Source of the DNA: Propionibacteriaceae bacterium | Lineage (GTDB): Bacteria; Actinomycetota; Actinomycetes; Propionibacteriales; Propionibacteriaceae | Reading direction: 5' to 3' | DNA length: 56,240 nt | Assembly (NCBI GenBank): GCA_025965155.1 | Contig: JAOPXN010000053.1 | Location: 1-56,240, forward strand | Part shown: positions 24,277-48,481 of the stretch, piece by piece | How the letters are laid out: every line of letters begins with the position of its first letter | How positions within the stretch are numbered: the stretch's first letter is position 1 | Translations under genes and position numbers: made by a program | Notes under the pieces: model-generated | What the model was told of the DNA's origin: nothing | Seen by the model: only the letters and a program-made list of their open reading frames with translations | Databases searched by the model: none

Positions 24277-24429
24277 ATGAGCGAACGCAGCACCGAGCCC
24301 AACCGCGACGACGACCGCGACGCAACCGATACCGCACCGGGGACAGAGCGCCCGACCGACCCCGATCCCATCGAAGGAATCGAAGATCAGGAGCGCAAGG
24401 GCTGGCTGGACGAGCCCACTACGAGCTGA
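24277..24429 (+). CDS. Small acidic disordered protein
   Basis: A 50-residue, highly charged protein (MSERSTEPNRDDDRDATD at the start, QERKGWLDEPTTS at the end). No hydrophobic core is visible. Such short acidic proteins are common in actinobacteria and their role is unknown. It lies 49 bases after the preceding gene on the same strand. Coding status rests on start context and composition only. Confidence 0.5.
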   Translation: MSERSTEPNRDDDRDATDTAPGTERPTDPDPIEGIEDQERKGWLDEPTTS

Positions 24430-24432
24430 CCT

Positions 24433-24721
24433 CGAGCGCTAGGTTTTTTTCTCCGGCACCGGCTCACCGCGGCATTCGTGTACGCCACCGGCTACCTCTG
24501 GTCGTACACGTTCCAAACCGCATATCTGACCCGCGGCTGGGTCGACGGCCAAGACGTCGGGTTTCGCCGGCCGGCCGGCCGACTTCGGCATTGACTACGG
24601 CTTAGTCACCGCAGCAATCTTCATCGTCGGCTTCGGCCTAGTGACACTCGGGCATTACCTCGGCACCCGGCGGCGTACCCGGAACCGCATCGCCGACCTC
24701 GACCCCGCGCCGCACTCCTGA
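24433..24721 (+). pseudogene. Small membrane protein gene with frameshift in a CCGG repeat
   Basis: Two overlapping frames read as one small membrane protein. The first encodes LTAAFVYATGYLWSYTF and then TRGWVDGQDVG (stop TGA 24592-24594). The second encodes DFGIDYGLVTAAIFIVGFG and then VTLGHYLGTRRRTRNRI (stop 24719-24721). The switch point is GCCGGCCGGCCGGCC at 24566-24580. Removing one 4-base unit fuses the frames exactly, so a single tandem-unit gain explains the break. The only start codon seen is GTG 24478, without a ribosome site, so the true N-terminus is unclear. The family is not recognised. Confidence 0.55.
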
Positions 24722-24764
24722 CCCGTCGGCTGCAGCTGCCCTAGTGATCGCCTTGACCAAGCCA

Positions 24765-27700
24765 TCAGGAGCGGGGCCGCAGCAGGAACCGCAGCGCTCG
24801 CCCGAGTTCCTCAGACCGCTCGGCCGGGGAGGCGAACTGCTCGATGCCGAAGCCGAGCAGCACGGAGTCCTTCGTGGTCACCGCGCTGAAGAGCAGTCCC
24901 GGCGCCCGCCGGAAGCTGCCACCCTCCGGTGGGCTGCCGGCCGGTTGGCCGGGCATCGACCAGGCACCCAGTCCGTTCTCGAACCCTTCGTGGTCGTGGA
25001 CCGAGCCGCGCACCACGACCGCGGTGTCGTCGACGAACGCGCCTACGCCACCGATAGCGGAGTCGGTCACATAGCTGATTGACACCTCGACTCGCTGACC
25101 GGCGTAGGCCGACAGGTCGAAGGTGGTCTGCTTCCAGCCGCCGGAACTGCCGGTCATGGCGTTCCACTTCCCCGTGGTCCCGGCCGGCGTGCATGCGTTT
25201 TCGGCCGGCGTCAGATAGTGCCGCAGGAATGGGTGCTCGTCCAGCAAGATCCCAGCCCCGCAGTCCGCTGGCGGAGCAGTCTTGGTGAGCCCGTTCGCGT
25301 CAGGCAACGTCGTCCAGCTGTCGCTGCCGATCCGGTGGGCCTCGACGATCACGTTGTCGTACCCCGGCTCGGTGTCGAACGACAGCCTGGCGCGCAGCTG
25401 CGGCTTCTGTGCAGCCGCCACCCTCGTTAGGTCGATGGTCTGAGACAGCCGCATGTATGAGTTGTCGGCGTGGAGACCCCCGACGTACCACGCCCCCTCG
25501 ACGGGATCGAACGCGCCGGCGGTGCCTTCGTAGGCGCCTGCGGCCGCGCTCGCGAACTGCGGGAACTGCTTGACCGGCAGGAGATCGCTGGTCACCGCGA
25601 AGGTTCCCGGCTCGTCCAGCGGGTTGTCGGCGACCGCGGTACCGCCGAAGCCGGCAGACGCTCCGCTCAGTGTGCCCAGGCCCTTGAAGGTCTCAGGGTT
25701 GGGCGCCGTCGCGCGCGAGTAAGCCCCGAGGTAGTACTGGTAGAAGTCGTCGGCAAGCAGCAGGCAGTCGGAGAACAGGTCCTGGGTCACCACGCAGTCG
25801 GCGCTCGGGTCTCCATTCAGGCCGTAGTAGATGCCGCCGATCGTGCTGCCGAGTACGCCGAGGTACCCGGCAGTCTCGCCGGTGTGCACCAGCTTGCCGT
25901 GCTCGTTGAGGTAGTCGCGCACTGACAGCGTCAGGTACTGCTGCCGCTCCGCCACCGCTGCGTCCGCTATCTGGCGGCCGCCGATGTCGGTAAGGGCGTC
26001 CTCCGGGTCTTGAGTGAGCCGGTTGTCGCCGAGATACCACACCACCGTTTTGAAGTGGCCCAGCACGCCAAGATGGTGAGGTACGCCTTGGCGGGACACG
26101 TCCCACACGGATGCCTTGAACCCTTGGGCCTGCAACGCCGCGACATAGCCAGCGGCGTACTTCGGCTTGGTCACCGACGACGGGTAGTCGGGGTTCACCC
26201 CCTCGTAGTCCTCGTTGGCCAGCACCAGCACCGTGTTCGCAGTGTGTTCGGCCACCCGGTAGCGGAAGGACTCGCTGATCCGTTTCCCGTGACCGGGACG
26301 TCGGCCGGAGAACCAGACCCGGACATGGTCCCCCGGGTCGGCGCCTCGGACGACGCCGCGAAACTCCGCGTAGTACCGGCGACCCTGGTCGCCGTAGCGC
26401 TCGCCGCCGCGCCACTTCCGCACCGGCGCGCGATGGACCTTGCCGCCGTTGACGGAGTAGTGAAGCTTCAGTCTGCGCAGGTCGCGTTTTGCCGTCACGG
26501 CGACTGTCTGCGGGTCACCGTAGGAGACGTCGAAGCTGTCCACCTGGAAGTCCGGTGCCCTGCGCCCGACGACCGACACCGGGTCGTCGGGATCCTTGGC
26601 TGAGCGGGCAACCGCAAGCGCGAACGGGATGTTCTTCTCGAACTCCGCCCGAACGAGCGCCTCGGAGTCGGGGAAGTTGAAGATGCTCTCGCACGCAGCA
26701 GGATCAAACGCATCGTTGGGATCCGCAGCACTCGCGGTCTGGCAGGTCGACATCTCGGGGGTGAACGCCAGGGTGCCGTACCGCTGCTGGGCATGCTCGG
26801 TGGTCTCACCGTTGGTCGTGTAGAGCTCCGCGGAAATGTCGGGGTCGTAGCCAGGGACCGCCGGGTGGGCATCATCACCGGTGAGCGTCTCGTAGATCAG
26901 GTCGTCGGGGGTGGGCGTTGCGACCTGCCATCCGACTCCGTACAGCAGTAGCTCCGCGGCGGAATGGTAGTTGATCATGAACTCGAACCCGACCCGGCGC
27001 ATCAGCCGGTCCAACGCCCGCGTCTCGGGTTCCGACGCGGGCGAGGATCCCCGGTACTGCTCGCTGGCGATGGACGGTGACGAGCCCTCGTTGTCGTATC
27101 CCCATTTGTATCCAAAGTTGCGGTTGAGGTCGACGCCGTCCAGCCCGGTTATCATTCCGTCCCTGTCGTTGTCGCGGAGGTTCTTGCGCCACAGTCGGTG
27201 ACCTGCGGTGAACGTGTAGTCATAGCCGTCAGGGTTGGCGACCGGCACGAACCACAGTTCGGTGGTGTCGACAACGCGCTTGACTGTCGGATCGGTGGCG
27301 TACCGCTCCAGGTAGTAGTGCAACAGTCGGCGGTTCATCTCCGGCGTGATCCATTCCCGCGCATGCTGCGTCGAGGCATACAGCACGGACGGACGCCGCC
27401 CATCCTTGATCTTTTGGGCATCGCGGCTGACCTTGATCGCCAGAATCGGCTGCCCTTGCACGGTTCTGCCGATCGAGACCAGCTTGGTGAGCTTGGGGTA
27501 CTGGCCTGCGAGGACGATCAGCTCGTCCCGGATACCTCCGGGCGCACTATAGGAACGAAACACCTGGTAACCGGTGGCTGCCTTGGTGCTGAGCCGTTCC
27601 GAGACCGTCGCACCGGCCACCTCTTTCTCCGCCAGCTTCAGCCCCGAAGTGTTGAGCTTGGCAGCCTGGCTTTGGCTCAAGATCACCTCCACCGCGACCT

Positions 27701-27905
27701 TGCCCGGGGACGATGCCCCGCGTGTGGCCAGGCTTCCATGGTCCAACCCCAGTTCCGACAGCTGCTTGAGCTGCCCGGCCGTGAGCTCTCCGACGTAGAC
27801 CGTTGGTCCGTCCGATGGACTGGGGCCGGCTGATGCCGTAGGCACGGCGGCAAGGACCGAAGCCATCAGGGCTCCGACAACAAGTAGGGCAACTCTGCGC
27901 CTCAT
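24765..27905 (-). CDS. Secreted M14 zinc carboxypeptidase with immune-inhibitor-like tail
   Basis: A 1046-residue exported protein. The signal peptide is at residues 1-26 (MRRRVALLVVGALMASVLAA...). After a propeptide-like region, the M14 domain has the zinc ligands in STQHAREWITPE (His, Glu) and INYHSAAELLLYG (His), the substrate-binding VDLNRNFGYKWG, and the catalytic glutamate in FTPEMSTC. Beyond about residue 450 there is a long extension, ending in a domain with FDTEPGYDNVIVEA, GWKQTTFDLSAYAGQRVEV and GAFVDDTAV, like the C-terminal part of immune inhibitor A (M6) proteins. ATG 27905 follows GGGGGGAAG. It likely degrades extracellular peptides. Confidence 0.92.
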   Translation of the reverse strand: MRRRVALLVVGALMASVLAAVPTASAGPSPSDGPTVYVGELTAGQLKQLSELGLDHGSLATRGASSPGKVAVEVILSQSQAAKLNTSGLKLAEKEVAGATVSERLSTKAATGYQVFRSYSAPGGIRDELIVLAGQYPKLTKLVSIGRTVQGQPILAIKVSRDAQKIKDGRRPSVLYASTQHAREWITPEMNRRLLHYYLERYATDPTVKRVVDTTELWFVPVANPDGYDYTFTAGHRLWRKNLRDNDRDGMITGLDGVDLNRNFGYKWGYDNEGSSPSIASEQYRGSSPASEPETRALDRLMRRVGFEFMINYHSAAELLLYGVGWQVATPTPDDLIYETLTGDDAHPAVPGYDPDISAELYTTNGETTEHAQQRYGTLAFTPEMSTCQTASAADPNDAFDPAACESIFNFPDSEALVRAEFEKNIPFALAVARSAKDPDDPVSVVGRRAPDFQVDSFDVSYGDPQTVAVTAKRDLRRLKLHYSVNGGKVHRAPVRKWRGGERYGDQGRRYYAEFRGVVRGADPGDHVRVWFSGRRPGHGKRISESFRYRVAEHTANTVLVLANEDYEGVNPDYPSSVTKPKYAAGYVAALQAQGFKASVWDVSRQGVPHHLGVLGHFKTVVWYLGDNRLTQDPEDALTDIGGRQIADAAVAERQQYLTLSVRDYLNEHGKLVHTGETAGYLGVLGSTIGGIYYGLNGDPSADCVVTQDLFSDCLLLADDFYQYYLGAYSRATAPNPETFKGLGTLSGASAGFGGTAVADNPLDEPGTFAVTSDLLPVKQFPQFASAAAGAYEGTAGAFDPVEGAWYVGGLHADNSYMRLSQTIDLTRVAAAQKPQLRARLSFDTEPGYDNVIVEAHRIGSDSWTTLPDANGLTKTAPPADCGAGILLDEHPFLRHYLTPAENACTPAGTTGKWNAMTGSSGGWKQTTFDLSAYAGQRVEVSISYVTDSAIGGVGAFVDDTAVVVRGSVHDHEGFENGLGAWSMPGQPAGSPPEGGSFRRAPGLLFSAVTTKDSVLLGFGIEQFASPAERSEELGRALRFLLRPRS

Positions 27906-27985
27906 GGCTTCCCCCCGGCGACCACAGCCGTCTGTGCGTCGCAATCTGCAACACCTGAGATAACACTGGACAATGCAATCCCGTG

Positions 27986-28231
27986 TCAACGGGGGTAGGT
28001 CGCGCCAGAGGTGTCCGGGACCCGTCGGTTTTGGTAGATACCGTAAGAAAGGTTGGAAAGTCCCGCGGCTACGGCGAAGCCAAGCACCGTAGGACGTTGG
28101 CGACCGGGCAGCCACCAACGCCTGGCCAACGCGCAGCCGCGGACCCCTTCGACGGCCCGGTCGGTGAGTAAGAAAGTAACGGCACCTACGGGAAGCCCAG
28201 CGGCCACCGATCTCGGGGTCCCGACAGCCAA
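27986..28231 (-). CDS. Possible small membrane protein
   Basis: An open frame of about 81 codons with two modest hydrophobic stretches (SVAAGLPVGAVTFLL and VLGFAVAAGLSNLSYGIY). It lies in the same frame directly after the stop of the sigma-partner gene. TTG 28231 is preceded by GAGGAGGG, although the spacing is short. The frame also continues upstream without a start codon (HTPEVDGPVAWLFEEG). It could be a small real gene or the remnant of a longer membrane protein. No family was recognised, and the rest of the 377-base gap (27906-28282) shows nothing else. Confidence 0.3.
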   Translation of the reverse strand: MAVGTPRSVAAGLPVGAVTFLLTDRAVEGVRGCALARRWWLPGRQRPTVLGFAVAAGLSNLSYGIYQNRRVPDTSGATYPR

Positions 28232-28282
28232 ACCCTCCTCAAACAGCCACGCTACCGGCCCATCAACCTCTGGTGTGTGACG

Positions 28283-28927
28283 TCAGGGAGTCCACGATGC
28301 ATTGTCACCGAACGGGTTGGCGTAGTCGATGCTTCTCACCGTCGCGGCACTGCCGACCCCGAACGGAATGACCCCGGACACACATTGACCTGGTTTGTAG
28401 CTGCCGTCGAAGGGATAGGTCGTGGGCAGCGGTACCCGAGCGCGAATGGGATCGTCGATGGTTATGGTCGCTGAACCGGTCTCAACCGTCCAGGAGTCCG
28501 CCCTGAGGTGCACCCGGCCGTTGCGGCTCCCAGGTGGCAGGCTTCGTACGCAGGTGGTGACGAAGACGGTGTACAGGTCGGTTGGGTCGTTGTTGACCCG
28601 AACATGGTCCGCGGAGCTGACGGTAACCACAATGTCGGGGAACGTGACGGTGGTGCCCACTAGGTGGCTGGCGGGCGGCCTCATCGGGGTCGCCGGTTGA
28701 GGAGAGACGGTGGCCGACGGCGCTCCGGTCAGCCGCTGCTGATCATGAACTGTGCTGATTCCGAGGATGGTCACCGTGATGGTGACCGCGGCAGCCGTCG
28801 TGGCGTTGACAGCCAGTCTGAGCCGATTCCGGCCGGGGCGCCGAGTGGCCGCGGATTCGGCGAGGATGCGGTCAACGATGCGGTCAGGTTCACGGAGCCG
28901 CCGTGCGGATGGAAGCTGAAGGTTCAT
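28283..28927 (-). CDS. Membrane-anchored protein coupled to ECF sigma factor
   Basis: A 214-residue protein with a short cytoplasmic N-terminus (PDRIVDRILAESAATRR), one membrane segment (about residues 39-58, VNATTAAAVTITVTILGI) and an extracytoplasmic domain of beta character that has two cysteines (TTCVRSLPP and GQCVSGVIPFG). The fold resembles DUF4352-like domains. Its ATG overlaps the sigma factor stop by 4 bases, the usual arrangement for a sigma regulator, but no zinc anti-sigma HxxxCxxC motif is present. It is therefore a candidate anti-sigma or sensor partner by position only. Confidence 0.6.
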   Translation of the reverse strand: MNLQLPSARRLREPDRIVDRILAESAATRRPGRNRLRLAVNATTAAAVTITVTILGISTVHDQQRLTGAPSATVSPQPATPMRPPASHLVGTTVTFPDIVVTVSSADHVRVNNDPTDLYTVFVTTCVRSLPPGSRNGRVHLRADSWTVETGSATITIDDPIRARVPLPTTYPFDGSYKPGQCVSGVIPFGVGSAATVRSIDYANPFGDNASWTP

Positions 28928-29532
28928 CTGGACTCTCCCAGCAGGGTGGCGATCTCGGTGTTGGCAAGGCGGGATCGGGCCCTGGACAGGCGCGACTTGG
29001 CTGTGCCTACAGAGATCTTCAACGTGGCGGCGGCCTCGGCCATGCTGAGACCGGACCAGGCCACCAGCTCCACCACGTCGCGCTGATGTCGCGGCAGAAC
29101 AGCCAACGCCTGACGGATCGCCTGCATTGTCGCCTCACTCTCGACCCACGCTTCGGTGTTGTCGACCGCATCACTACTCGCCGATCCGAGGTGGTCCACC
29201 AACCGGACGCGGCGACTACGGGATCGGTTGAGGTTGCTGCACTCGTCGCGAGCCATGGCGAAGAGCAGCGGCCGTGCCGAGTCCAGGCGGAGATCCTCGA
29301 TCTTGCCCGCGACCGCGCGCCGCCACAACGCCGCGAACGTGGCCTGGACGGCATCCTCGGCTAGCGACCATGACCCGGTGCTACGGAAGCAGTAGTTGTA
29401 GACCATGTCGCTGTACCGCAGGAACAGGTCACGGAAGGCCAACTCGTCGCCGGAACCGACCGCGTGCCATAGATCGGGGTCAGAGCGGGCAGGCCCGCTC
29501 AGGTTGGCGTTCATCACCACCACCCGGCTCAT
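28924..29532 (-). CDS. ECF-type RNA polymerase sigma factor
   Basis: A 202-residue sigma-70 family factor. Region 2 (about residues 25-90) has FLRYSDMVYNYCFR and LAEDAVQATFAALWRR, and region 4 (about residues 140-190) has LPRHQRDVVELVAWSGLSMA, then AATLKISVGTAKSRLSRAR. Regions 1 and 3 are absent, as in extracytoplasmic-function factors. ATG 29532 is chosen over longer frames because AAGGGG precedes it and the encoded MSRVVVMNANLS leads straight into region 2. It is coupled to the membrane protein gene downstream. Confidence 0.9.
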   Translation of the reverse strand: MSRVVVMNANLSGPARSDPDLWHAVGSGDELAFRDLFLRYSDMVYNYCFRSTGSWSLAEDAVQATFAALWRRAVAGKIEDLRLDSARPLLFAMARDECSNLNRSRSRRVRLVDHLGSASSDAVDNTEAWVESEATMQAIRQALAVLPRHQRDVVELVAWSGLSMAEAAATLKISVGTAKSRLSRARSRLANTEIATLLGESR

Positions 29533-29885
29533 CGGGCACCCCTTAGGCAGCCCACGGAATTCTTCACACCCATGATGAGTCCAGCACGGTCCATCTGGTT
29601 CCCTCGAGGTTCCGGCGGCCATGAGCAGCACCCCGCGGCCAAAGGAGATTTTCGTGTTCACCTGGCGCGAACGTCCGAGCGACGTGCAGGTGAACTTCCG
29701 GTGTCGCCGAACGCACGGTTTCTCGGAGTTTGGCCGGCCGTCCGCTGAACCAGTGAAAATTCGACGCCGATGTGCCACGCTGGTGAGTGTGCCTACCTTG
29801 CCACAGTGCGAGTGCAGGGTTCGCTGGCACCATCTTTGAGTGCATCGGCGCATTGCTCAGTTCCGCGCTGACAGACAGGAGTTTG
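29533..29885. other. Divergent intergenic region, sigma factor / small protein
   Basis: A 353-base gap between divergent genes. It has no open frame with family motifs and no clear RNA fold. It probably holds the promoters of both genes. I could not single out -35/-10 elements with confidence. Confidence 0.35.
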
Positions 29886-30209
29886 ATGTCAAAGATCGAC
29901 TACAAGCACATCAGCGTCGAGCGCAACGGCCGGGTTCTCGCCGTAGCCGAGGTTCGCACCGACGCGGAGCACAACGTTGTCAGTGCCAGTCTGCATGTCG
30001 AGGCGGGGCATCTTCCGATGGGAATCCGGACCCAGCTCGTGGATGATTTCCTTGCACAGACAGACGCCCTTCCCGGAGCACTGCTGCAGGTGGCTCTTCC
30101 GGCGGGTGACGGAGAGATACTTGATCGGATGCGACAGCGCTGCGGCCACATCGACACTCGAGCCGCCGGAGCTACCTGCCTGGCTGCCGCTCATTTGCCC
30201 AAACTATAA
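29886..30209 (+). CDS. Conserved hypothetical protein
   Basis: A 107-residue soluble protein starting MSKIDYKHISVERNGRVLAV. ATG 29886 has CAGGAG five bases upstream, which decides against a longer frame. The body (SASLHVEAGHLPMGIRTQLV, then DGEILDRMRQRCGHIDTRAAG) suggests an alpha/beta fold, with two cysteines near the end. I recognise no family. It converges on the endonuclease gene with one base between the stops. Confidence 0.7.
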   Translation: MSKIDYKHISVERNGRVLAVAEVRTDAEHNVVSASLHVEAGHLPMGIRTQLVDDFLAQTDALPGALLQVALPAGDGEILDRMRQRCGHIDTRAAGATCLAAAHLPKL

Positions 30210-30210
30210 A

Positions 30211-31110
30211 TCAGAGCTGAATGTCGGCGAAGTCGTGCAGCGGCATCCACCGGCCTGCAGTGGTGGCCGCCTCGGTGGCGAGTTCGCCGACGGGAACTGG
30301 CGTAGGCCTGGGCAGTCGGTCAGCCGCGGGCAGTGGCCCCAGGCTGAGCCCGGTCAGGGTGGCGATGTCGATGATGGGAACCTGGAACGTGCGGTAGGGG
30401 CCCAGCGGCGGCGGGTCACCCGCATCCAGCGCCTGCTGGGTAGCAAGCTCGACGTCGTCGAGCTGTGGGGTTTGGTCAAGTAGGTATCCGGTGGCGGCCA
30501 GCAGCTGGGAGGTCGGATCCGCTGCGGTATCTGACTGGCCAGTAGTGCCGGGCTGGGCCCAGGCCGCGATCTTCCAGAACCGGCGCGGAATCTGAACGCC
30601 TCGGTAGGGCGGGTCCTCCTCAGCGAGGATCGGTGCCGTGAGCACACACAGGCGCTGCCGGTACGTCCGGGCGTGGTCCAGGATGTAGTCCTCCAGCCCC
30701 GCCCACAACAGCTTGCCCTGATTGAACTCGGCCGCTTGAGGGGCAGCGTTGACATAGCTGAAGGTGTCGAAGTTAGCCTGCGCTGCTATCTCTGCGTCAC
30801 CCCAGACGGGGTCGCGGCGGCGGACGAGGTGTCCGCGGTCAAGGTCGTTGTTGACGTACACGTCGGGGCCGGTCTGCTGATCAGCCGGCACTCGTGGGTC
30901 GAGGTGCCAGTCGTCGCCGCGCTCAAGATCCCGCAGCGCGGCGCCGTCGAGGTTCACCGCGGTCGCGACCGCCAGGCGCCGGGCCAGATGAAGCAGCACG
31001 CTGAAGTGGGTGAACGGCAGCTCCCTGGTCGGTGCCGCGGCAGCGGGGACAGGGAAGGGCGCGCTCACGGGCAAGAACTCCGGGTCGTACCCCGCGGCAG
31101 CCGTGGCCAT
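30211..31110 (-). CDS. DNA/RNA non-specific endonuclease (NUC1 family)
   Basis: A 299-residue protein with the beta-beta-alpha-metal nuclease core. The signature DLDRGHLVRRRDPVWG (about residues 93-108) has the catalytic histidine in DRGH. The magnesium-binding asparagine is in NAAPQAAEFNQGKLLW (about residues 121-136). No clear signal peptide is seen, although the first 27 residues are alanine/proline-rich. It may act as an intracellular or exported nuclease or as a toxin domain; no immunity gene is evident. It is divergent from the sensor kinase gene. Confidence 0.88.
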   Translation of the reverse strand: MATAAAGYDPEFLPVSAPFPVPAAAAPTRELPFTHFSVLLHLARRLAVATAVNLDGAALRDLERGDDWHLDPRVPADQQTGPDVYVNNDLDRGHLVRRRDPVWGDAEIAAQANFDTFSYVNAAPQAAEFNQGKLLWAGLEDYILDHARTYRQRLCVLTAPILAEEDPPYRGVQIPRRFWKIAAWAQPGTTGQSDTAADPTSQLLAATGYLLDQTPQLDDVELATQQALDAGDPPPLGPYRTFQVPIIDIATLTGLSLGPLPAADRLPRPTPVPVGELATEAATTAGRWMPLHDFADIQL

Positions 31111-31328
31111 GGATCGAGCCTACTCAGCGCACACCAGGACCCCTTGATTTAGGGGGCGGCAACTTCTATTTGTGGCCCTCCGCGGCCGCTCAGTCCGTCA
31201 TCCTTGAGTCGCAGCCGACCAGGGGGTCTGAGCAGCGTCCACGATGGGGAAGGAACCACGATGGCTTCGGCACGAGGCGATTTCCCAGCGCACGCGAAAG
31301 TATCGCGAAGACCAAATCGAGGGAAGCG

Positions 31329-32747
31329 ATGACGCACGAGCTCGCGTCGGACCCGCCGGCAGAGGTGGCCGGCAGCGTTCCCGCTCCGACGCGTCGATGG
31401 GTGACCCTGTCCACAGGATCAGACGGGATAAGCCCCGAACCTCCGCTCCGACCGGGGCGGGTCTACGCGCAGGTTATCGCTGCGACCATTCTCGTCGTCC
31501 TCGCCGTAGCGCTCTTCGGAGCCTTCACCAGCAGGCAGGCGGCGGAGCGGCAAGCGGTCGATATTGCCTCTCAACGGGCTGACATCTTGGCGGATGCGGT
31601 GGTGCAGCCAGCACTACAGAACGGCATTATCGAGCAGGACCCGGCCGCTGTGAACCGGCTGAGGATAGCCGTCGAGGATCACGTGATGGGGCCGACGATC
31701 ACCCGGGTGAAGTTCTGGACCGCCGAGGGGCTCGTTGTCTACTCCAGCGATCCACGCTTGGTCGGGTTAACCTTTCCGCTCAGCGACGACCATCGGGCCG
31801 TCCTGGCGCACCCCTCCCTGCGTGCCGAGGTCACCAACCTTGACGAACCCGAGAACACCTTCGAACGCGGCGAGGGGAAGCTACTCGAGGTGTACCGGCC
31901 CGTGTGGATGCCGGACGGGCGTGCGCTCGTGATGGAGACCTACTCCCCCTACAGCACGGTCGATCAGCGCACAGGTGAGGTCTGGCGCGACTTCGCCACG
32001 ATCACGATCGTCAGCCTCCTGGTCCTCATACTCCTGCTGCTACCGGTGCTCTGGCGGCTCATCCAACGGTTGCAGCTGTCCCAAGCGCAGCGGCAGGCGC
32101 TGCTGGAGCGTGCCGTGGATGCCTCAGCCCAGGAACGGCGTCGGATTGCCGCGACGCTGCACGACGGAGTGGTGCAGGAGCTGGTCGGCGCTTCGTTCGT
32201 CGTCTCGGGCGCCGCGGTACGGGCCGAGGGTGAGGGGCGGCACAACGCCGCCGATGAGCTACGGGGGGCCGCCGCCACCGTCCGCAGCAGTATTGGAGGA
32301 CTTCGCTCGCTACTGGTTGACATCTACCCGCCCAGCCTGGCGGCCACCGGCCTCAAGGCTGCCCTGAGTGACCTCGTGGCCAGTCTGCGAACCCGCCAGA
32401 TTGCGGTCGACCTCGAGTGCAGCTACGACGGTGTAAGCCTCGGCAAGGACGGTGAGCGGCTCGTATTCCGGGTGGCGCAGGAGTGCCTCCGCAACGCGGC
32501 CCGACATTCGGCAGCAACGATGGCGACTGTGCGGCTCGCTCCGGACGGAAACACCATGGTTCTCGATGTAGTCGACAACGGCATCGGCTTCAACCCCGAA
32601 CAGCTACTCGCGCAGCCCAAAGAGGGGCACTTCGGCCTCCGCCTGATGGCAGACTCCGCCACCCAGGGCAGCGCCCGGCTTCGGGTGGCCTCGGCCCCAG
32701 GCGCTGGAGCCCATTGGCAGCTACGCGTACCCATGGAGCAGAGCTGA
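31329..32747 (+). CDS. Orphan sensor histidine kinase, NarX/DegS-type
   Basis: A 472-residue membrane kinase. One membrane segment (about residues 48-66) and a second (about 223-244) flank an extracytoplasmic sensor domain of about 155 residues (with VKFWTAEGLVVYSSDPRLVG). The HisKA_3 helix ERRRIAATLHDGVVQELVGA carries the phospho-accepting histidine in LHDG. The HATPase domain has AQECLRNAARHSA, VVDNGIGF and GHFGLRLMAD. ATG 31329 follows GAGGGAAG. No response regulator lies next to it; the next gene is a GT20 protein 94 bases downstream on the same strand. Confidence 0.92.
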   Translation: MTHELASDPPAEVAGSVPAPTRRWVTLSTGSDGISPEPPLRPGRVYAQVIAATILVVLAVALFGAFTSRQAAERQAVDIASQRADILADAVVQPALQNGIIEQDPAAVNRLRIAVEDHVMGPTITRVKFWTAEGLVVYSSDPRLVGLTFPLSDDHRAVLAHPSLRAEVTNLDEPENTFERGEGKLLEVYRPVWMPDGRALVMETYSPYSTVDQRTGEVWRDFATITIVSLLVLILLLLPVLWRLIQRLQLSQAQRQALLERAVDASAQERRRIAATLHDGVVQELVGASFVVSGAAVRAEGEGRHNAADELRGAAATVRSSIGGLRSLLVDIYPPSLAATGLKAALSDLVASLRTRQIAVDLECSYDGVSLGKDGERLVFRVAQECLRNAARHSAATMATVRLAPDGNTMVLDVVDNGIGFNPEQLLAQPKEGHFGLRLMADSATQGSARLRVASAPGAGAHWQLRVPMEQS

Positions 32748-32841
32748 CGCCCCTGCAACTATTGTTTCAGGTGCCAGTTCATGCTTGAGTGAAGTACGTT
32801 GAGCAGCGCAAAGCGCTGCCCTTCCCGCGAAGGTGATGGTC

Positions 32842-34389
32842 GTGGCTTTCCAATCCAGTGCCAACCCCTCTCCCTGGGATGCCTTGCTCGTGGTGAGCTA
32901 CCAGCTCCCTGTCCACACCCCCGAGCAGGCCGAGCCGGTATTTCACCGGGGCAGCACACCGGGTAACCGCATCGATGCCCTCGCCGCCGGAATGCGACAC
33001 CAGCGCGCCACCTGGGTCGGCGGCTGCCATGTCACGGATGGTCCCGGGGTGCCCTTCAGCCAGGGACAGCTCAACTTCGAGCCCGTTCTGCTGTCCTGCA
33101 CCGAGCGGGCCGCCTGCGACGAGTTCTGCCATCACACGCTATGGCCCCTGTACCACGACATCATCGCCCATCCTGAGTTCCGCCAGAGCGGCTGGGCCGG
33201 GTACGAAACGGTGAACCGCCGCTTTGCCGACCGCATCGTCGAGGTCGCCGAGCGCGGAGCGACTGTCTGGATCCTGGACCACCACCTCCAGCTGGTACCA
33301 GCACTGCTGCGGGAACGACGCCCCGACCTTCGAATCGGGATCTTCATCGACATTCCGTTCCCGCCGATGGAGCTGCTCTACCATCTGCCCTGGCACCGGG
33401 AGCTGCTGCAGGGTCTCCTCGGTGCCGACCTGCTCGGGTTCCAGCTGCCGAGGCATCAGCAGAACTTCATCGAGGCGGCGCAGGTCACCTTAGGGCACCC
33501 CATGCATCCCGGTGGTCTCCATCTCGGCACCCGCCATCTGAGGACAGCGACCTATCCAATGGCGGTCCAGACACGGGCGCTGAGCCTGGTGGCGGCACAA
33601 CCTGAGGCAGCCGAGCAGGCGCAGACCATCCGTGCACTGCTCGGCGACCCGCGGGTGCTGCTGCTCGCTTTCGACCAGCTGGACTGCACAGCGGGGATCC
33701 ACGAGCGACTCCAAGCATTTGAGGATCTGATCAAGCGCCGGGAGCTGGACCCGCGGGACACTGTGCTGGTCCAGATCGCCACCACCTCCGACGAGGAGCG
33801 TGTCGGTAAGTCGAAGATGCGTGACGACATCGACCGGCTGGTCGGCCGCATCAACGGCGACGCCGCACGGTTCGGACACCCGCCCGTCATCTACGTCCAC
33901 AGCACCGGAGCCGACGCCACCATGGCGGGCCTGTACCGGGCCGCGGACCTGCTGCTGTCCACTCCGCTGCGCGACGGCATGAGCCTGGCGGCGAAGGAGT
34001 ACATCGCGTGCCGGCAGGCAGATGACGGCGCCGTCGTACTGAGCACCCTCTCCGGAGCCGCGGAGCAGCTCACCAGCGCGTATGAGGCGAACCCCTACGA
34101 CCTGGAGGCGTTGAAGGCGTGTCTGCTCCGGGCCGTCCATTCCACCGCAGAGGACCGGGCCACCCGGATGCGGGCTCTGCGCAAACAGGTGGCCGACAAT
34201 GATCTGGCCCGGTGGGCGTACCGATTCCTGCGGGACCTGGGCAGCCATTCCTCTGAGGTGTCGTGCTCGGGCCATGAGACCCACCCGACCCTGGAGCTGC
34301 CGCTGATGGACAGGGTCAAGGGATACCCCTCGGCGCTGCGTCGTTGGCCCGGTCACTCCACCGGCGGCTCCTCGGCGAGTCTGTCCTGA
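32842..34389 (+). CDS. GT20 (trehalose-6-phosphate synthase family) protein with degenerate active site
   Basis: A 515-residue protein with the whole GT20 fold recognisable: [82 protein letters not shown]. Compared with E. coli OtsA, many ligand contacts are changed: VSNR becomes VSYQ, the GGL loop becomes GNR, HDYHL becomes LDHHL, FLHIPFP becomes FIDIPFP, ERLDYSKG becomes DQLDCTAG (Arg262 to Gln, Lys267 to Ala), and PTSR becomes TTSD (Arg300 to Asp). Only the C-terminal LRDGM..AKEY acidic residues are kept. It is unlikely to make trehalose-6-phosphate; a regulatory or novel role is possible. GTG 32842 fits the AAGGTGA site best. Confidence 0.85.
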
Positions 34390-34404
34390 CTCGGTTCCCG
34401 AGTC
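34388..34404. terminator. Hairpin between GT20 and YihY genes
   Basis: GACTCGG-TTC-CCGAGTC overlaps the end of the GT20 stop codon and lies just before the convergent YihY stop. It is a 7-bp perfect stem that could end both transcripts. It has no T-tract. Confidence 0.45.
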
Positions 34405-34410
34405 GGGCGC

Positions 34411-35418
34411 TCAGCCCTTCTGTGTCGGCGTCGAGTCGGCCTTCACCGCTCCCCGCTTGCCGATCGGCTCGGGCGACCCCTTCGTCGTGTCGGCCACTGT
34501 CTGCTCCTCGGACTCCGCGTTGATCTCGGCGCCAAGCAGGACCGCATAACAGGTGATCCACAGCCACAGCAGCAGCACCACGACTCCGGCCAGTGCGCCG
34601 TACGTCTTGGCGTAGCTACCGAAGTTGGAGACGTAGATGGTGAACCCGACGGACGCGACCACCCACAGAATCGTAGCGGTCACCGCGCCCACCGAAACCC
34701 AGCGCATCTTCGGTGCATCCCGGTCCGGCGCGACCCGGTACAGAACCGCCAGTGCGCCGGTCACCAAGATGATCAACAGGATCCAGCGGAGCACCTCCAA
34801 GATCCAGCGCAGCGGTCCCGATCCGACCAGGTTGTCCAACAGCGCAGGGACGACAGCCACCAGCGCAATTGTGATCGACATGAAGACGATCGCGGCAACG
34901 GTGAGGCCGAGAGCGAGTGCCTTCCGTTTGATGAAGCCGCGGGTCTCCTCCTCGTCGTAGGCGGTGTTGATGGCGGTGATCAACTGGCCTACCCCGCCCG
35001 ACGCGCTCCAGAAGGCCAGCAGCAAGGCAATGATCAGTCCGACTCCCAGCGACTGCTGTGGGGTGGACGTCAGCGACTGGAGCTGGGTCTGGATCAAATC
35101 CCGGGCTGCGCTCGGCATGTTCTGCGTGAACGAGCCGACCTGCTCGGTGATCTTTGCTGGGTCGGCGAACAACCCGTACAGCATGACAAGTGCGATCAGG
35201 GCCGGAAACAGTGACAAGAAGCTGAAAAAAGCGACACCGGCCGCCAGCAGCGGTACCTGGTCCGCCTTGGCTTCCTTCCACCCCCGCTTCACGATCTGGA
35301 GCCACCCCTTGGGTGGGATCTCCTGGGGCTTGTCGGCATGCTGGCCCGGAACCTGCTCGTCGGCCCGGCTGGTGGAACGGGCCGAGCGGTCGGTTTTCGT
35401 GGTGGCGATGGTAATCAC
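34411..35418 (-). CDS. YihY/BrkB family membrane protein
   Basis: An integral membrane protein of about 335 residues with six hydrophobic segments and the family pattern ADQVPLLAAGVAFFSFLSLFPAL near the N-terminus. Further on are FWSASGGVGQLITAINTAYD and VGAVTATILWVVAS. The family (formerly annotated as ribonuclease BN) has no confirmed activity; transport or envelope roles are proposed. The start is uncertain: GTG 35418 has an AGGAGA that is very close, while an upstream TTG 35457 has no site. The C-terminus is hydrophilic. Confidence 0.85.
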   Translation of the reverse strand: MITIATTKTDRSARSTSRADEQVPGQHADKPQEIPPKGWLQIVKRGWKEAKADQVPLLAAGVAFFSFLSLFPALIALVMLYGLFADPAKITEQVGSFTQNMPSAARDLIQTQLQSLTSTPQQSLGVGLIIALLLAFWSASGGVGQLITAINTAYDEEETRGFIKRKALALGLTVAAIVFMSITIALVAVVPALLDNLVGSGPLRWILEVLRWILLIILVTGALAVLYRVAPDRDAPKMRWVSVGAVTATILWVVASVGFTIYVSNFGSYAKTYGALAGVVVLLLWLWITCYAVLLGAEINAESEEQTVADTTKGSPEPIGKRGAVKADSTPTQKG

Positions 35419-35520
35419 TCTCCTACGCGAGGGAACGGCTTGCTCAGAAGTCGGCAACAGCGCCGGTCTGAGTTTACGTTGTAAAGCCTGGAAATGACCA
35501 CGGTCGACGCCGCGGAGTGG

Positions 35521-35826
35521 TCACGCCTCACCGTGGCTCAGCCCTTCGGTCTCGTCGCCGTCGGACATGCCGCGTGCGGTCGGTTGGGCGAACTGCAGCA
35601 CATGCGACACCTCGTCAGCCGAGGCGCTGTCGACGAAGCGGGCGGACTTGTGGGAGCCGTCGCACAGCGGCTTGAGCCGCGAACGCCCGCAGCGGCAGAG
35701 CGCGATCACGTTGCGATCCGTGTCGATCACCCGACCGTCGGCACTACGCAGCTCGAAACTGCCCCGGACGAGCAGCGGGCCGTCCGGGTAGACCGTGATG
35801 GATGTCGGGTCGACGTGGCCGTTCAC
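35521..35826 (-). CDS. CDGSH iron-sulfur domain protein
   Basis: A 101-residue protein with one CDGSH-type domain. The ligands are in LCRCGRSRLKPLCDGSH (Cys, Cys, Cys, His), which binds a 2Fe-2S cluster. The N-terminal part (ITVYPDGPLLVRGSFELRSADG) matches the bacterial short family. GTG 35826 overlaps the stop of the upstream iron-enzyme gene (GTGA), so translation is coupled. The two families are often neighbours in actinobacteria. It probably has redox or iron-sulfur transfer roles. Confidence 0.9.
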   Translation of the reverse strand: MNGHVDPTSITVYPDGPLLVRGSFELRSADGRVIDTDRNVIALCRCGRSRLKPLCDGSHKSARFVDSASADEVSHVLQFAQPTARGMSDGDETEGLSHGEA

Positions 35827-36944
35827 CAGCGGCCCGCCGATCGCAGGCTGGACTGGTGGTCGGACCAGCTGTTGATCAGATGCCGGGCGAACTGCTGATC
35901 CGCCAGCTGCGCGCAGCGCGCCCCGAAGACGATGTCCCCGGCCAGGTCGGGCTCGGCTGCGGCCAGCCCGCCGGCCAGGTCGTGCGCGGCGATCTGCTCG
36001 TGCATCGCATCGGCCACCACATGCTCGTCGAAGAAGCGGGCGGCTGCCTCGTCACCACCGAGCCGACGGTGACCGCGGCCGTACCGGCCGTTCGGTATCG
36101 ACGACGTCATCTCAAACAGCGCGAGATGGCCGACGAGTGCGCCGCGCCACCGACGGTTGAGCCCGAACATCGAGATGATGTTGCTGGACAGCAGGGTCAC
36201 GGCCGGCACCAGGTCCAGATAGTGCCCGTAGCCCGTCTCGAGCCCCCAGCTCCGCATCAGGGTACGGAACAACTCCGCGTGCATGGCCGCGGTTCGGCCC
36301 GACCCGTACTCATCGGACTGGATGGTGACCAGCGCCGACTTGACCGAGCCGCTCATCCGGGGAATCGCCCAGCTGTGCGGGTCAGCCTCCTTGAGATGGT
36401 AGATCGACCGATGGATCAAGAACTCCCGGAACTGCTCGGAGTCGGCCTCGCGCATCAACACCCCCGACAGCGAGGGTCCGTCGTCAGTGGCAGCAATGCT
36501 GTTCAGCCGGGCGATCACTGACGCCGGGTCCGGTTCGACCATGCTGTGCGGCGCGCCGATGGCCCCCGCAAGGCTGGTGCAGAGCAGGTGCTCCCACTCC
36601 TGGCGCGCGCGCAGCAGTTCCGGATGCCACTCCCAGTCTTCGGACACCTCCGCCAGACCCCGGTAATGCAGCTCGTAGCTCAGCCAGAGGGCAAGCTGTA
36701 AGTCATCGTCGAGGATGGCGGACTCGACCGGTCCCTGCCAGCGCAGCTCAGGCCGGGCCTCGGCCTCCCACCGCCCGATCTCCCAGGGATTGTGCAGCAG
36801 CAGCGCGATCAGCGCCGCCGACACCGGGCCGCGGGCTGCGGGCAGAGGGACAGGTCGGTCATGCAGCGACACGTCGTACCCGCCATGGACGTCGGACTGC
36901 GCTGCCAGCGGCGGCGTGGGGTTGGAGTCCATCTGCAAAGTCAC
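35823..36944 (-). CDS. Iron-containing redox enzyme (heme-oxygenase-like fold)
   Basis: A 373-residue, helix-rich protein. Putative metal-ligand segments are EYGSGRTAAMHAELF, GHLALFEMTSS and FFDEHVVADAMHEQIAAHDL, the E/H/D pattern of the heme-oxygenase-like diiron family. Known relatives carry out oxidative chemistry with a diiron cofactor; the substrate here is unknown. GTG 36944 (VTLQMDSNP) is preferred to a longer frame because GGAG is 8 bases upstream. It is translationally coupled to the CDGSH protein, which could donate electrons (inference). Confidence 0.82.
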   Translation of the reverse strand: MTLQMDSNPTPPLAAQSDVHGGYDVSLHDRPVPLPAARGPVSAALIALLLHNPWEIGRWEAEARPELRWQGPVESAILDDDLQLALWLSYELHYRGLAEVSEDWEWHPELLRARQEWEHLLCTSLAGAIGAPHSMVEPDPASVIARLNSIAATDDGPSLSGVLMREADSEQFREFLIHRSIYHLKEADPHSWAIPRMSGSVKSALVTIQSDEYGSGRTAAMHAELFRTLMRSWGLETGYGHYLDLVPAVTLLSSNIISMFGLNRRWRGALVGHLALFEMTSSIPNGRYGRGHRRLGGDEAAARFFDEHVVADAMHEQIAAHDLAGGLAAAEPDLAGDIVFGARCAQLADQQFARHLINSWSDHQSSLRSAGRW

Positions 36945-37170
36945 GATAGTTGCTCCACTGGGCGGCGGACTGAACGCAGGGGATCCTTCATTGGATGTCC
37001 TTCCGGGCGGACGAGCACGTCCCGCGCCTCGGTTGGACTGGAGAGGCAAACGGTTCCGTGGCTCGAAGCCATACATACGGATCACACATTCACCCCCTCC
37101 GTTCTGAAGGAGCAACTACCACCGTACAACGCCGGGCTGACAAAGTCAGCGAGGCCCCCGCCAGCCGGCG

Positions 37171-37995
37171 TTACGGTCCGGTAGTCTCCTCGGCGACCAC
37201 GACCATTGACTGGAGGTACGGGGCGCCGAAGGTGGTGGCCATCGCCACGTCGGAGGCATCGCGACCGCGTCCGATCAGCACCCGGCCCTTCCGCTTCTCG
37301 TTGTTACGCGGGTCGAAGGTCCACCAGCGGTCCCCCAGCCACACCTCCATCCAGGCCGCAAAGTCCATCGGCTGCGGTTTCGGTGCGACCTCGATCTCCG
37401 GCAGGTAGCCGAAGACGTAGCGCGCCGGGATGTTGAGGGCCCGGCAGAGGGAGATTGCCAGGTGTGTGAAGTCCCGGCACACCCCGTAACCCGAAGCGTG
37501 TACGTCGGCCGCCGTGCTGAGCGCCGTGCTGCTGCCGTACTGGAACTTCAGGTAGTTGTGCACGTAGTCGCAGATGGCCTGGACCCGCTGGTAGCCGCGG
37601 GGCATGGTGCCGAACCGCGACCACGCCTCGAAGCCCAGCACGTCTGGTAGAACGTACCGGCTCGGCAGGGTGTACATCAGCACCTCGTCAGGCAGCTCGT
37701 CCGGAAACAACTCGGGGGCATCCGGGTCGCTGTCCTCGGTGGCGTTGGGCACCTCCACCTGAGCCTGGTAGGTGAAGAGCGACTGACCGGCAGGTACGGT
37801 CAGCCGAAGGCACCGGTTCCCGTATGCGTCCACGTAGGGGCGACTGGGGCGCTGTGGCTCCATGCTGCAGTGCTCGTCCAACAGCTTGACGTCTTGGTCC
37901 AGCAGCGGCTGCACCAAAAACACAGCCGGCGTCTCGACGGCAGAGCTGTACGCAAACTCGCAGCCGAGCTGCAGCTGCAACGTATCTGGAGCCAT
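37171..37995 (-). CDS. Transglutaminase-like protein lacking the catalytic histidine
   Basis: A 274-residue protein of the transglutaminase-like superfamily. An N-terminal beta domain is followed by the catalytic core: the cysteine in GYGVCRDFTHLAISL (about residue 173) and the aspartate in WWTFDPRNNEK. The position normally holding the histidine (xxFHAWxEV) reads MDFAAWMEVWLG, so Ala replaces it. Relatives with the same C-terminal GRGRDASDVAMATTFG ending exist, and that subfamily varies at this position. Enzymatic activity is therefore doubtful. It starts 3 bases after the stop of a small acidic protein gene. Confidence 0.85.
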   Translation of the reverse strand: MAPDTLQLQLGCEFAYSSAVETPAVFLVQPLLDQDVKLLDEHCSMEPQRPSRPYVDAYGNRCLRLTVPAGQSLFTYQAQVEVPNATEDSDPDAPELFPDELPDEVLMYTLPSRYVLPDVLGFEAWSRFGTMPRGYQRVQAICDYVHNYLKFQYGSSTALSTAADVHASGYGVCRDFTHLAISLCRALNIPARYVFGYLPEIEVAPKPQPMDFAAWMEVWLGDRWWTFDPRNNEKRKGRVLIGRGRDASDVAMATTFGAPYLQSMVVVAEETTGP

Positions 37996-37998
37996 GCC

Positions 37999-38193
37999 TC
38001 AGCCCCGGTCGGTATCGATGTCGTCTTCCGGTTCGCTGTAGTCGCGCGGCGGCCCGTGCGGGATATGTTTCGCCGACTCGGCGTCGGGGATGACCTCGAC
38101 GTCGGCCGGCGTACCGTCCGGGTCGACCAGCGCGTCGAGGCGCTGGGTCTCGGAGATCTGGCCTTCGGAGTCGTCGTCAGGCTTGCGAGGCAT
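37999..38193 (-). CDS. Small acidic protein
   Basis: A 64-residue hydrophilic, acidic protein (MPRKPDDDSEGQISETQRLD, ending EPEDDIDTDRG). AAGGAA precedes the ATG. It lies between the dps and transglutaminase-like genes with short gaps, so it is probably co-transcribed. No domain was recognised; it is likely disordered. Confidence 0.6.
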   Translation of the reverse strand: MPRKPDDDSEGQISETQRLDALVDPDGTPADVEVIPDAESAKHIPHGPPRDYSEPEDDIDTDRG

Positions 38194-38241
38194 GAAGTTC
38201 CTTTGCGTGCGGGACCGGCGGATGGACGAGGAGGGCGCTAC

Positions 38242-38838
38242 TCAGGTCCGGGGCACGGTCCTGCTCGCCTTCTCTGCCGCACCCACCTCCGTCGTCTCCC
38301 CGGTGGTGGCGGTATAGCCTGCCTTGTTCTCCAGATGGGAGCGGATGAACCACTGGAACAGCTCGAGCTGCTTGGTGTGGCCGATCAACATGTCCTGGGT
38401 GATCGGGTCGATCTCACCGACGGAGTTGATTGCCTTTCGCTGGTCGGCGATCACTCCGTCGTACACCAGGTCAAGGGCAGCGAGGTGCTCGATTGTCAGG
38501 GCGCGCCCGAGCGAGTACTCGTTCCAGGTCCGGTCGGCTGCAATCGCGCCCGGCGTTCCGACCGGCGGTACGCCCAGGGTGGCCATCCGCTCGGCCGTCT
38601 CATCGACCATCTCCCGTACCGCATCGATCTGGGGGTCCAACATCTTGTGCACCCCGATGAAGTCCGGGCCAACCACGTTCCAGTGGGCGTGCTTCAAGGT
38701 GAGCTGGAGATCGTTCAGAGCGTGCAGCCGCAACTGCAAGGTCGCACCCACACCGTGCCCGTCCTCCAGGCTGAGCCCGGGAACGGTGAAGTCGCTGTCG
38801 GGGCCGGCTTTCGTGGTCGTCGTCTGTGCAGCCATCAT
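38242..38838 (-). CDS. dps: Dps family ferritin-like protein
   Basis: A 198-residue DNA-protection protein. The helix LTLKHAHWNVVGPDFIGVHKML and the following DAVREMVDETAERMATLG carry the histidines, aspartate and glutamate of the intersubunit ferroxidase site. It stores iron and detoxifies hydrogen peroxide in a dodecamer. A flexible C-terminal tail after ENKAGYTATTGE contains lysine and arginine and could touch DNA. GGAAGG lies five bases before the ATG. It leads a run of minus-strand iron/redox genes. Confidence 0.93.
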   Translation of the reverse strand: MMAAQTTTTKAGPDSDFTVPGLSLEDGHGVGATLQLRLHALNDLQLTLKHAHWNVVGPDFIGVHKMLDPQIDAVREMVDETAERMATLGVPPVGTPGAIAADRTWNEYSLGRALTIEHLAALDLVYDGVIADQRKAINSVGEIDPITQDMLIGHTKQLELFQWFIRSHLENKAGYTATTGETTEVGAAEKASRTVPRT

Positions 38839-42226: not shown

Positions 42227-42259
42227 ATGTGACCTGACCACCGTCCGCAGGATGTGACC

Positions 42260-43678
42260 ATGCCATCCAGCCCAGCACTAAAGCTGCACCCCGACCGGCT
42301 GCTTCCAACCGAACCCGCGGTCCGCGCCATCGCCCGGGAGCTGTACGAGTCGGTCAGGCAGCTGCCGATCATCTCTCCACACGGGCACGTGCCGGCGCAG
42401 TGGCTGGCCGATGACATCCCCTTCACCGACCCCACCTCGTTGTTGATCACGCCCGACCACTACGTCAACCGGCTGATGCACGCCCATGGCGTGGACCTTT
42501 CCGAGCTCGGCGTGGGCCGGGGGCCGCTGACCGCTGAGGAGTCCCGTCAAGCGTTCCGGATCGTCTGCGCCAACTGGCACGTCTACCGCGGCACACCCGT
42601 CCGCTTCTGGTTCGACTCGCAGCTGGCCGACATCTTCAACGTCACTGTGCGACCGTCTGCCGACACGGCGGACCGGATCTACGACCAGATCCAGGAGTGT
42701 CTGGACTCGCCGGAGTTCCGGCCGCGTGCACTGTACGACCGCTTCAACATCGAGGTGCTGGCGACCACGGACGACCCGTGCGACGACCTGGCTGCGCACC
42801 GCCGCCTCCGCGACGACGACAGCTGGTCCCGCCGGGTGATCCCGACGTTCCGCCCGGACCGCTACCTGGAGGCGGCCTCCCCCGGCTGGATCGACACCGT
42901 GGACCGGCTGGCGGAGGTGTCCGGGGTGGACACTTCCGACTACGCCGGCTTCATCGCCGCCCTGGAGAACCGCCGGCGCTACTTCGTCGACCACGGCGCC
43001 GTCTCCTCCGACCACTCCCATCTCGACGCCCGGACCGACCTCCTCGAGCCGGCTGAGGCTGAGTACCTGTTCAACCTCGCTCGCAAAGGTGAGATCGCCG
43101 AGCACGAGGCGACCATGCTGCGGCGCCACCTGATATCGGAAATGGCCAGGATGGCCTGCGACGACGGGCTGGTGATGACTATGCATCCAGCGGTGCGGCG
43201 CAACCACCACCTGCCGACCTTCGAGTCGTATGGTGCGGACGTCGGCACCGACATCCCCGTACGCGTGGAGTTCACCGACGCGCTGCGGCCGATGTTGAAC
43301 CGGTACGGAACCCACCCGAACTTCCAACTGGTGGTTTTCACGCTGGACGAGACGGTTTTCTCCACCGAGCTAGGACCGCTTGCGGGGTTCTACCCGTCGG
43401 TATATGCCGGAGCTCCGTGGTGGTTCATCGACGCACCGGAGGCTATCCGGCGCTACCGGGCAGCGATTACCGAGTCCGCCGGCTTCACCAAGACCTCTGG
43501 CTTCATCGACGACACCCGCGCCTTCTGCTCCATCCCAGCCCGGCACGACATGTCGCGGCGGCTGGATGCCAGCTTCGTCGCCCAACTCGTGGCAGAACAT
43601 CGGCTGGATGCCGACGAGGCGTTGGAGACCGTGCACGACCTGGTCGTCACCAACCCACGGCGGGCGTTCAAGCTCTGA
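42260..43678 (+). CDS. uxaC: Glucuronate isomerase
   Basis: A 472-residue amidohydrolase-fold enzyme that converts D-glucuronate to D-fructuronate (or galacturonate to tagaturonate). The N-terminal metal site is in LPIISPHGHVPAQWL. Characteristic segments are FNIEVLATTDDPCDDLAAH, VIPTFRPDRYLEA, DHGAVSSDHSHLDA and TKTSGFIDDTRAFCSIPARH. Length is normal. ATG 42260 has AGGA seven bases upstream; an in-frame GTG 42254 is too close to it. The 3' end overlaps that of the convergent lacI gene by 11 bases. It opens the uronate/sugar catabolic block. Confidence 0.95.
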   Translation: MPSSPALKLHPDRLLPTEPAVRAIARELYESVRQLPIISPHGHVPAQWLADDIPFTDPTSLLITPDHYVNRLMHAHGVDLSELGVGRGPLTAEESRQAFRIVCANWHVYRGTPVRFWFDSQLADIFNVTVRPSADTADRIYDQIQECLDSPEFRPRALYDRFNIEVLATTDDPCDDLAAHRRLRDDDSWSRRVIPTFRPDRYLEAASPGWIDTVDRLAEVSGVDTSDYAGFIAALENRRRYFVDHGAVSSDHSHLDARTDLLEPAEAEYLFNLARKGEIAEHEATMLRRHLISEMARMACDDGLVMTMHPAVRRNHHLPTFESYGADVGTDIPVRVEFTDALRPMLNRYGTHPNFQLVVFTLDETVFSTELGPLAGFYPSVYAGAPWWFIDAPEAIRRYRAAITESAGFTKTSGFIDDTRAFCSIPARHDMSRRLDASFVAQLVAEHRLDADEALETVHDLVVTNPRRAFKL

Positions 43679-48476: not shown

Positions 48477-48481
48477 TCACC

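Follow-up and report, generated by a model that had tools for sequence, protein, structure and literature searches.

Retaining GT-B glycosyltransferases generally depend on an Arg-Lys pair and on the phosphate of the donor. In OtsA, a GT20 member, the contact list in PMC6879718 assigns the donor to Arg286, Lys291, Asp385, Glu393, His168 and the backbone of residues 386-389, and glucose-6-phosphate to Arg18, Tyr90, Asp144, Gln146 and Arg324, with Gly39 as a likely catalytic residue; positions are numbered here on Mycobacterium thermoresistibile OtsA unless stated otherwise. The GT20 fold can serve something other than trehalose-6-phosphate, as in the pseudo-glycosyltransferases VldE and ValL, and VldE, described in PMC3441724, uses GDP-valienol and keeps Arg290, Lys295, His182, Asp158 and Arg326. 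Fungi are already known to have inactive GT20 relatives with a regulatory role in trehalose metabolism, and inactive ones are known in plants. Yeast Tps3/Tsl1 and Aspergillus TslA/TslB are eukaryotic paralogues without catalytic residues that stand beside an active synthase and carry a TPP-like domain; Tps3/Tsl1 and TslA are treated as regulatory in PMC1769515 and PMC5405227, and the former source also reports replacement of Arg262 by Gln or Lys in yeasts. Plant class II TPS proteins likewise have an inactive GT20 domain (as given in PMC3634074 and PMC1769515), fused to TPP and with limited substitutions at the TPS site in the account of PMC1769515. Among prokaryotes, the TPSP-GT system of Thermoproteus tenax has a GT-type partner that activates trehalose synthase, is encoded in the operon and acts on a TPS-TPP fusion (according to PMC3634074). 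No description of a bacterial pseudo-OtsA was found in the literature searched, which is not proof of absence.

The window, a 56,240-nucleotide stretch from a Propionibacteriaceae bacterium (contig JAOPXN010000053.1), carries on its forward strand a gene for a 515-aa GT20 paralogue, a pseudo-OtsA, at 32842..34389, recognised by its intact ORF, by Pfam and by a model matching 5jij and 5k41. The open frame spans 32833-34389 (+) with candidate starts at GTG 32833, ATG 32836 and GTG 32842, the last of which gives 515 residues. The Pfam search found GT20 alone (PF00982; 334 bits, residues 54-466) and no TPP domain. Against NCBIfam TIGR02400 the window protein scores 359.9 bits and the true OtsA of the same genome 544.4, and the equivalog cut-off of 564.85 lies above both; an annotation that relied only on a GT20 match would take the variant for a second otsA. 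The protein is 43-48% identical to actinobacterial OtsA, and its top match among solved structures is the OtsA of M. thermoresistibile. An AlphaFold (AF2) model built from a four-sequence alignment has a mean pLDDT of 72.7 and a pTM of 0.74, and a Foldseek comparison with 5jij gives a target TM of 0.89, a query TM of 0.80 and an rmsd of 2.7 over 462 columns; in this predicted structure the OtsA fold is retained. Segments with pLDDT <50 include the altered pocket loops at 30-41, 280-283 and 315-322 and the last 46 residues, and because the pocket loops are of low confidence the model is a poor guide to the pocket.

The initial annotation had read the protein as a GT20 member that kept the fold and lost most donor and acceptor contacts, and had called for a structural model against OtsA; the Pfam score, the match of that model to 5jij and the contact mapping given below bear this reading out. 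The motif changes that it listed (VSYQ, GNR, LDHHL, FIDIPFP, DQLDCTAG and TTSD) and the retained LRDGM..AKEY are all present in the translation, and so its comparison with E. coli OtsA stands for the changes themselves, but actinobacterial OtsA is the appropriate standard of comparison. The true OtsA of the genome has the motifs VANR, GGL, QDYQL, FLHIPFP, DRLDYTKG and PSR, so that the first residue of the listed HDYHL to LDHHL change is not a striking loss, and the last His of the variant motif equals that of E. coli.

Relative to M. thermoresistibile OtsA, the window protein carries R18Q, G39N, Q146H, H168D, R286Q, K291A, R324D and N388S, has Asp or a gap at Tyr90 depending on the alignment, and leaves D144, D385, G386, M387, L389 and E393 unchanged. 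Along the forward strand, and compared with the single orthologue described below, Arg18 (E. coli Arg9) is lost in VSYQLP at 32893..32910, where it is Gln here and Asp in the orthologue, and an 11-residue mobile loop at 32941..32973, identical in the orthologue at 11/11 residues, has Asn for Gly39 (E. coli Gly22) and Arg for the following Leu. LDHHLQ at 33274..33291 keeps Asp144 and has His for both Tyr145 and Gln146, and FIDIPFP at 33343..33363 has Asp for the donor residue His168 (E. coli His154). A 10-residue donor-phosphate segment at 33667..33696 replaces the Arg-Lys pair of Arg286 and Lys291 by Gln279 and Ala284, the orthologue having Pro and Ala. IATTSDEE at 33775..33798 has Asp for the acceptor-phosphate residue Arg324 (E. 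coli Arg300; Pro in the orthologue), so that the glucose-6-phosphate site has lost Arg18, Tyr90 and Arg324. The 12-residue donor-sugar loop at 33967..34002 keeps Asp385, Gly386, Met387, Leu389 and Glu393 and changes Asn388 to Ser. When the eleven active-site residues listed for E. coli OtsA in PMC1769515 are matched by motif, the window protein lacks seven (Arg9, Gly22, Trp40, Tyr76, His154, Arg262 and Arg300) and keeps four (Trp85, Asp130, Asp361 and Glu369); Trp40 remains Trp in the orthologue. Of three Mtr allosteric-site residues, Arg384 alone is kept.

The replacements at Gly39, His168, Lys291 and Asn388 are the same in both variant copies, whereas Arg18, Tyr90, Arg286 and Arg324 are lost in both but to different residues. 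These eight positions are kept in 78/78 distinct ordinary OtsAs that cover them, and Gln146 is His in 3 of the ordinary OtsAs. A partial 79th OtsA (L039) keeps the 4 positions that it covers among R18, G39, Y90, H168, R286, K291 and R324, and differs at Y289 and N388. In 141 columns the 79 ordinary OtsAs show at least 98% conservation; of these, both variants keep 99, both change 35 (23 of them to the same residue) and one changes 7. Both variants differ at 8/14 contact columns vs 27/127 other equally conserved columns (one-sided Fisher p 0.0067), and this excess, together with the retention in ordinary OtsAs, argues that the contact losses are not due to chance. In Candida Tps1, K285A and Y89F leave no detectable enzymatic activity in the results given in PMC5527307, and by role and spacing K285 and Y89 can be taken as the equivalent Lys and Tyr positions. 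Since replacing the Lys of the Arg-Lys pair by Ala left Candida Tps1 with no detectable activity, the window protein is, to judge from its residues, very unlikely to make trehalose-6-phosphate.

Compared with the described systems, the window protein is like OtsA (GT20, e.g. M. thermoresistibile 5JIJ; 43% identity) in its predicted fold, its donor-sugar loop RDGM-L---E and Asp144, and unlike it in lacking Arg18, Gly39, Tyr90, His168, Arg286, Lys291 and Arg324 and in carrying an extra C-terminal tail; in the OtsA of S. venezuelae the residues that bind the diphosphate, missing from the window protein, are present (as described in PMC5247666). As with VldE and ValL, a GT20 fold would serve something other than trehalose-6-phosphate, but of the five VldE residues given in PMC3441724 (Arg290, Lys295, His182, Asp158 and Arg326) only the Asp is present. 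The protein shares with Tps3/Tsl1 and TslA/TslB a GT20 domain without catalytic residues and a normal synthase gene in the same genome, and shares an inactive GT20 domain with plant class II TPS; unlike these proteins it is bacterial and single-domain, with no fused TPP domain. The T. tenax partner offers a prokaryotic likeness, but the variant gene is unlinked to otsA.

The variant is present in 2/20 genus genomes, namely that of the window (G000) and that of the uncultured Propionibacteriaceae bacterium AVDCRST_MAG75 (G018), and in 2/198 family genomes. The two variants are 63% identical and have GNR, LDHH, DIPFP, LDCTAG, ATTS and RDGMS in common. In each genome there is also a true otsA, whose motifs are ordinary. 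GT20 matches number two in the window genome, and its one trehalose-phosphatase match (otsB) adjoins the true otsA on a different contig from the variant. The locus is syntenic in the two genomes, where the variant is accompanied by a convergent YihY/BrkB membrane protein gene (34411..35457, reverse strand in the window; Pfam), a haem-oxygenase-like protein, Dps and a penicillin-binding protein. YihY matches occur in 15 other genus genomes, and at the 12 of these places that were inspected none of the variant, haem-oxygenase-like, Dps and penicillin-binding protein genes of this locus lies beside it, two of the places (L125 and L126) ending at contig ends. The initial annotation had asked whether the substitutions form a clade in genomes that have a true otsA as well: the true otsA was found in both variant-bearing genomes, and the substitutions are in part common to a two-member clade, many being shared and those at R18, Y90, R286 and R324 going to different residues, a pattern other than random decay.

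No third sequence scores between the variant pair and ordinary OtsAs in the 198 family genomes or, among the matches listed, in 391 order genomes; the next-best score below the pair is 461 bits in the 20 genus and 198 family genomes and, among the matches listed, 512 in the 391 order genomes. Among the matches listed for 394 class and 396 phylum genomes, only G000 scores far above the rest, and G018 is absent from both lists. Match thresholds were 1e-130 for the order and class sets and 1e-155 for the phylum set, up to 3 candidates were scored per genome, the genome sets overlap and motifs were checked in the fetched loci; a more divergent clade member could have escaped the order, class and phylum searches. 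A scan of 84,980 species with two peptide patterns returned 4 loci, the orthologue and three others (L037, L038 and L039). L037 and L038 have ordinary OtsA motifs and were rejected as further variants, and L039 is a partial sequence. A match to the DNA pattern for LDCTAGI in a second genome (G468) lies in an unrelated frame. Viral and plasmid origins were set aside: 13 stretches in viral contigs matched a pattern and none was confirmed as a relative, and 354 plasmid records hold relatives, all <60% identical among the best 20 of the 354. A quick tree groups the variant pair as a single clade, whose stem is 3.23, nested in a starred fork; the 50 rows of this fork all belong to the order where coded. 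This position suggests that the variant most likely arose by duplication of otsA within the order, the exact placement being unsure given the long branch.

The Nei-Gojobori dN/dS between the two variant copies is 0.27 (dS 1.03), or 0.28 on a second alignment; the true otsA genes of the two genomes give 0.09, and six further genes of the region give 0.05-0.17. Together with the orthologue, the ratio upholds the initial view of a pseudo-synthase with an intact 515-codon frame under selection. Eleven segments (91 codons), picked by the analyst by OtsA motif, were taken as the pocket. These have a pN of 0.116 and a dN/dS of about 0.08 (bootstrap 0-0.15), a rough value since dS is 1.61 and near saturation; the rest of the core has a pN of 0.242 and a dN/dS of 0.30 (0.22-0.40), and the C-terminal tail a dN/dS of 0.61 (0.33-1.13). 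Identity between the copies is 75/91 in the pocket vs 223/365 elsewhere in the core (p 1e-4), and on a MAFFT alignment with ordinary OtsAs it is 0.79 in the pocket and 0.61 in the rest of the core. Among 883 ordinary OtsA pairs with a rest-of-core identity of 0.57-0.65, mean pocket identity is 0.86 (0.77-0.97), which places the variant pair inside this range, at its low end, and the pockets of the two variants have mean identities of only 0.49 and 0.51 to those of ordinary OtsAs. A constraint near the OtsA range combined with low identity to ordinary pockets indicates a constrained but different pocket; judged from one sequence pair, its conservation comes close to that seen among ordinary OtsAs but involves a new residue set. 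Donor-side segments are near-identical between the copies and the glucose-6-phosphate positions R18, Y90 and R324, along with R286, differ, suggesting that the phosphate clamps were dropped and not replaced. The pocket segments are probably partly buried, and their conservation may partly serve folding.

The explanation favoured here, given a probability of roughly one half, is that the gene descends from a duplicated otsA and now encodes a pseudoenzyme, with a repurposed pocket for a putative ligand and a regulatory effect on a putative partner; binding or sensing, rather than synthesis of trehalose phosphate, is the probable function of the protein. After duplication one copy would have become the pseudoenzyme, which would carry out no NDP-sugar or glucose-6-phosphate chemistry, and its ligand site would comprise the retained donor-sugar loop (Asp378, Gly379, Met380 and Leu382), Asp146 and His148, and the new shared residues Asn42, Arg43, His147, Asp170 and Ala284. 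The ligand would be small, non-nucleotide and non-phosphorylated; the simplest candidate is a neutral sugar, for example trehalose or glucose, which is plausible because the sugar-recognising loop remains, and the loss of both phosphate clamps from a conserved, different pocket is compatible with a ligand lacking phosphate. Ligand binding would shift the open/closed state, and the signal may be passed to a partner, perhaps OtsA via a mixed assembly or another protein via the tail, so that the output would be that of a sugar-responsive regulator, as in the sensing or regulatory role suggested by the initial annotation. Even odds are given to the view that, once the gene had been duplicated, its pocket was rebuilt into a site that is under selection and accepts a new non-nucleotide ligand, the protein being either a free-sugar receptor or a new-chemistry enzyme on the OtsA fold; a metal site at Asp146, His148 and Asp170 is speculation. 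A compact single-domain bacterial case with a normal sister gene in the same genome would make it possible to study directly the conversion of a retaining GT-B enzyme into a binder or regulator, and to ask whether bacteria control OtsA through such partners.

A less probable alternative, close to the enzyme with a different, uncharged substrate that the initial annotation also proposed, is that the rebuilt pocket catalyses another reaction, such as hydrolysis or transfer, on an unphosphorylated substrate and without an NDP-sugar, with Asp146, His148 and Asp170 possibly acting as functional groups. The near OtsA-like constraint on the pocket and the identity of the new polar residues in both copies fit such an enzyme, but the Arg-Lys pair on which retaining GT-B enzymes generally rely is lost, the acceptor-phosphate positions differ between copies, no pathway genes are seen nearby and the conserved pocket can be accounted for without catalysis. 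More doubtful still is a purely structural, Tsl1/Tps3-like subunit that pairs with OtsA by its surface and whose pocket is conserved only through burial: the fold is kept and fungi have inactive GT20 subunits (in the accounts of PMC5405227 and PMC1769515), but fewer changes have accumulated in the pocket than in the remaining core, the opposite of what is expected of a free pocket, and the TPP domain of Tps3/Tsl1 is absent. Decay of a duplicate towards a pseudogene is improbable in the extreme, for although the dN/dS is threefold the value for the true otsA genes, the stem is long and the N-terminal starts differ between the copies, both copies are open over their full length at a dS of about 1, pocket pN is low and a 5' block is conserved; purely random decay is rejected on the strength of the syntenic orthologue, the dN/dS and the shared replacements. 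Least probable of all is an enzyme that still makes trehalose-6-phosphate or a related product at an unusual GT20 site, like GgpS or VldE, since the kept Asp144, Asp385, Glu393 and sugar loop are set against the loss of the Arg-Lys pair, Gly39, His168, Tyr90, Arg324 and Arg18, the retention of Arg290, Lys295, His182 and Arg326 in VldE (as described in PMC3441724) and the presence of a true otsA.

Two features at the ends of the gene count in favour of the pseudoenzyme reading. A conserved 5' block at 32757..32851 (+) extends from upstream across the start codon(s) and is a possible promoter or 5' leader. Its 95 bases align to 9783-9881 of the orthologue's locus (L036) with 77 matches, 9 mismatches and 22 gap columns, the local score is 47 vs a best of 26 among 500 two-base-block shuffles, and its core occurs in 2/20 genus genomes. 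The block has no similarity to the region upstream of the true otsA, and regulation shared with that gene was rejected because the upstream regions are dissimilar; a structured leader was rejected as well, the block having no Rfam match and no unusual fold signal. A scan of 32500-34700 for sigma-70-like promoters and terminators found none. The conservation of the block suggests that the gene may have its own conserved promoter. The block overlaps the start in the window, and in L036 the ATG lies 102 bases past the block end, with a 40-codon frame that starts inside the block and ends right at the ATG of the orthologue. At the other end of the gene, the C-terminal tail (34246..34386, +) is absent from the true OtsA of the genome and is modelled with low confidence; it has KGxPxAxxRWxGxSxGGSS in common with the orthologue, a possible docking motif.

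No trehalose gene adjoins the variant and no neighbouring pathway genes were seen. YihY, haem-oxygenase-like, transglutaminase-like and Dps genes lie in a row beside it at 34411-38838 (-); for the transglutaminase-like gene no counterpart was found in L036. On the other side, the stretch 20114-32747, which separates the variant from the clpP genes, holds genes for a P450, an esterase, an M14 peptidase, an ECF sigma factor, a DNA/RNA endonuclease and a HisKA_3 kinase. In 17.9 kb of the orthologue's region none of these was found, the upstream histidine kinase included. Further along the window, UxaC, xylose-isomerase-like, LacI-type regulator and ABC permease genes at 42254-50334 (+) resemble a hexuronate-use cluster. 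A glgX-like glycogen-debranching gene at 51451-53652 (-) has one in-frame stop after codon 466, its first part matching CBM48 and alpha-amylase and its second part weakly matching Isoamylase_C, below the cut-off.
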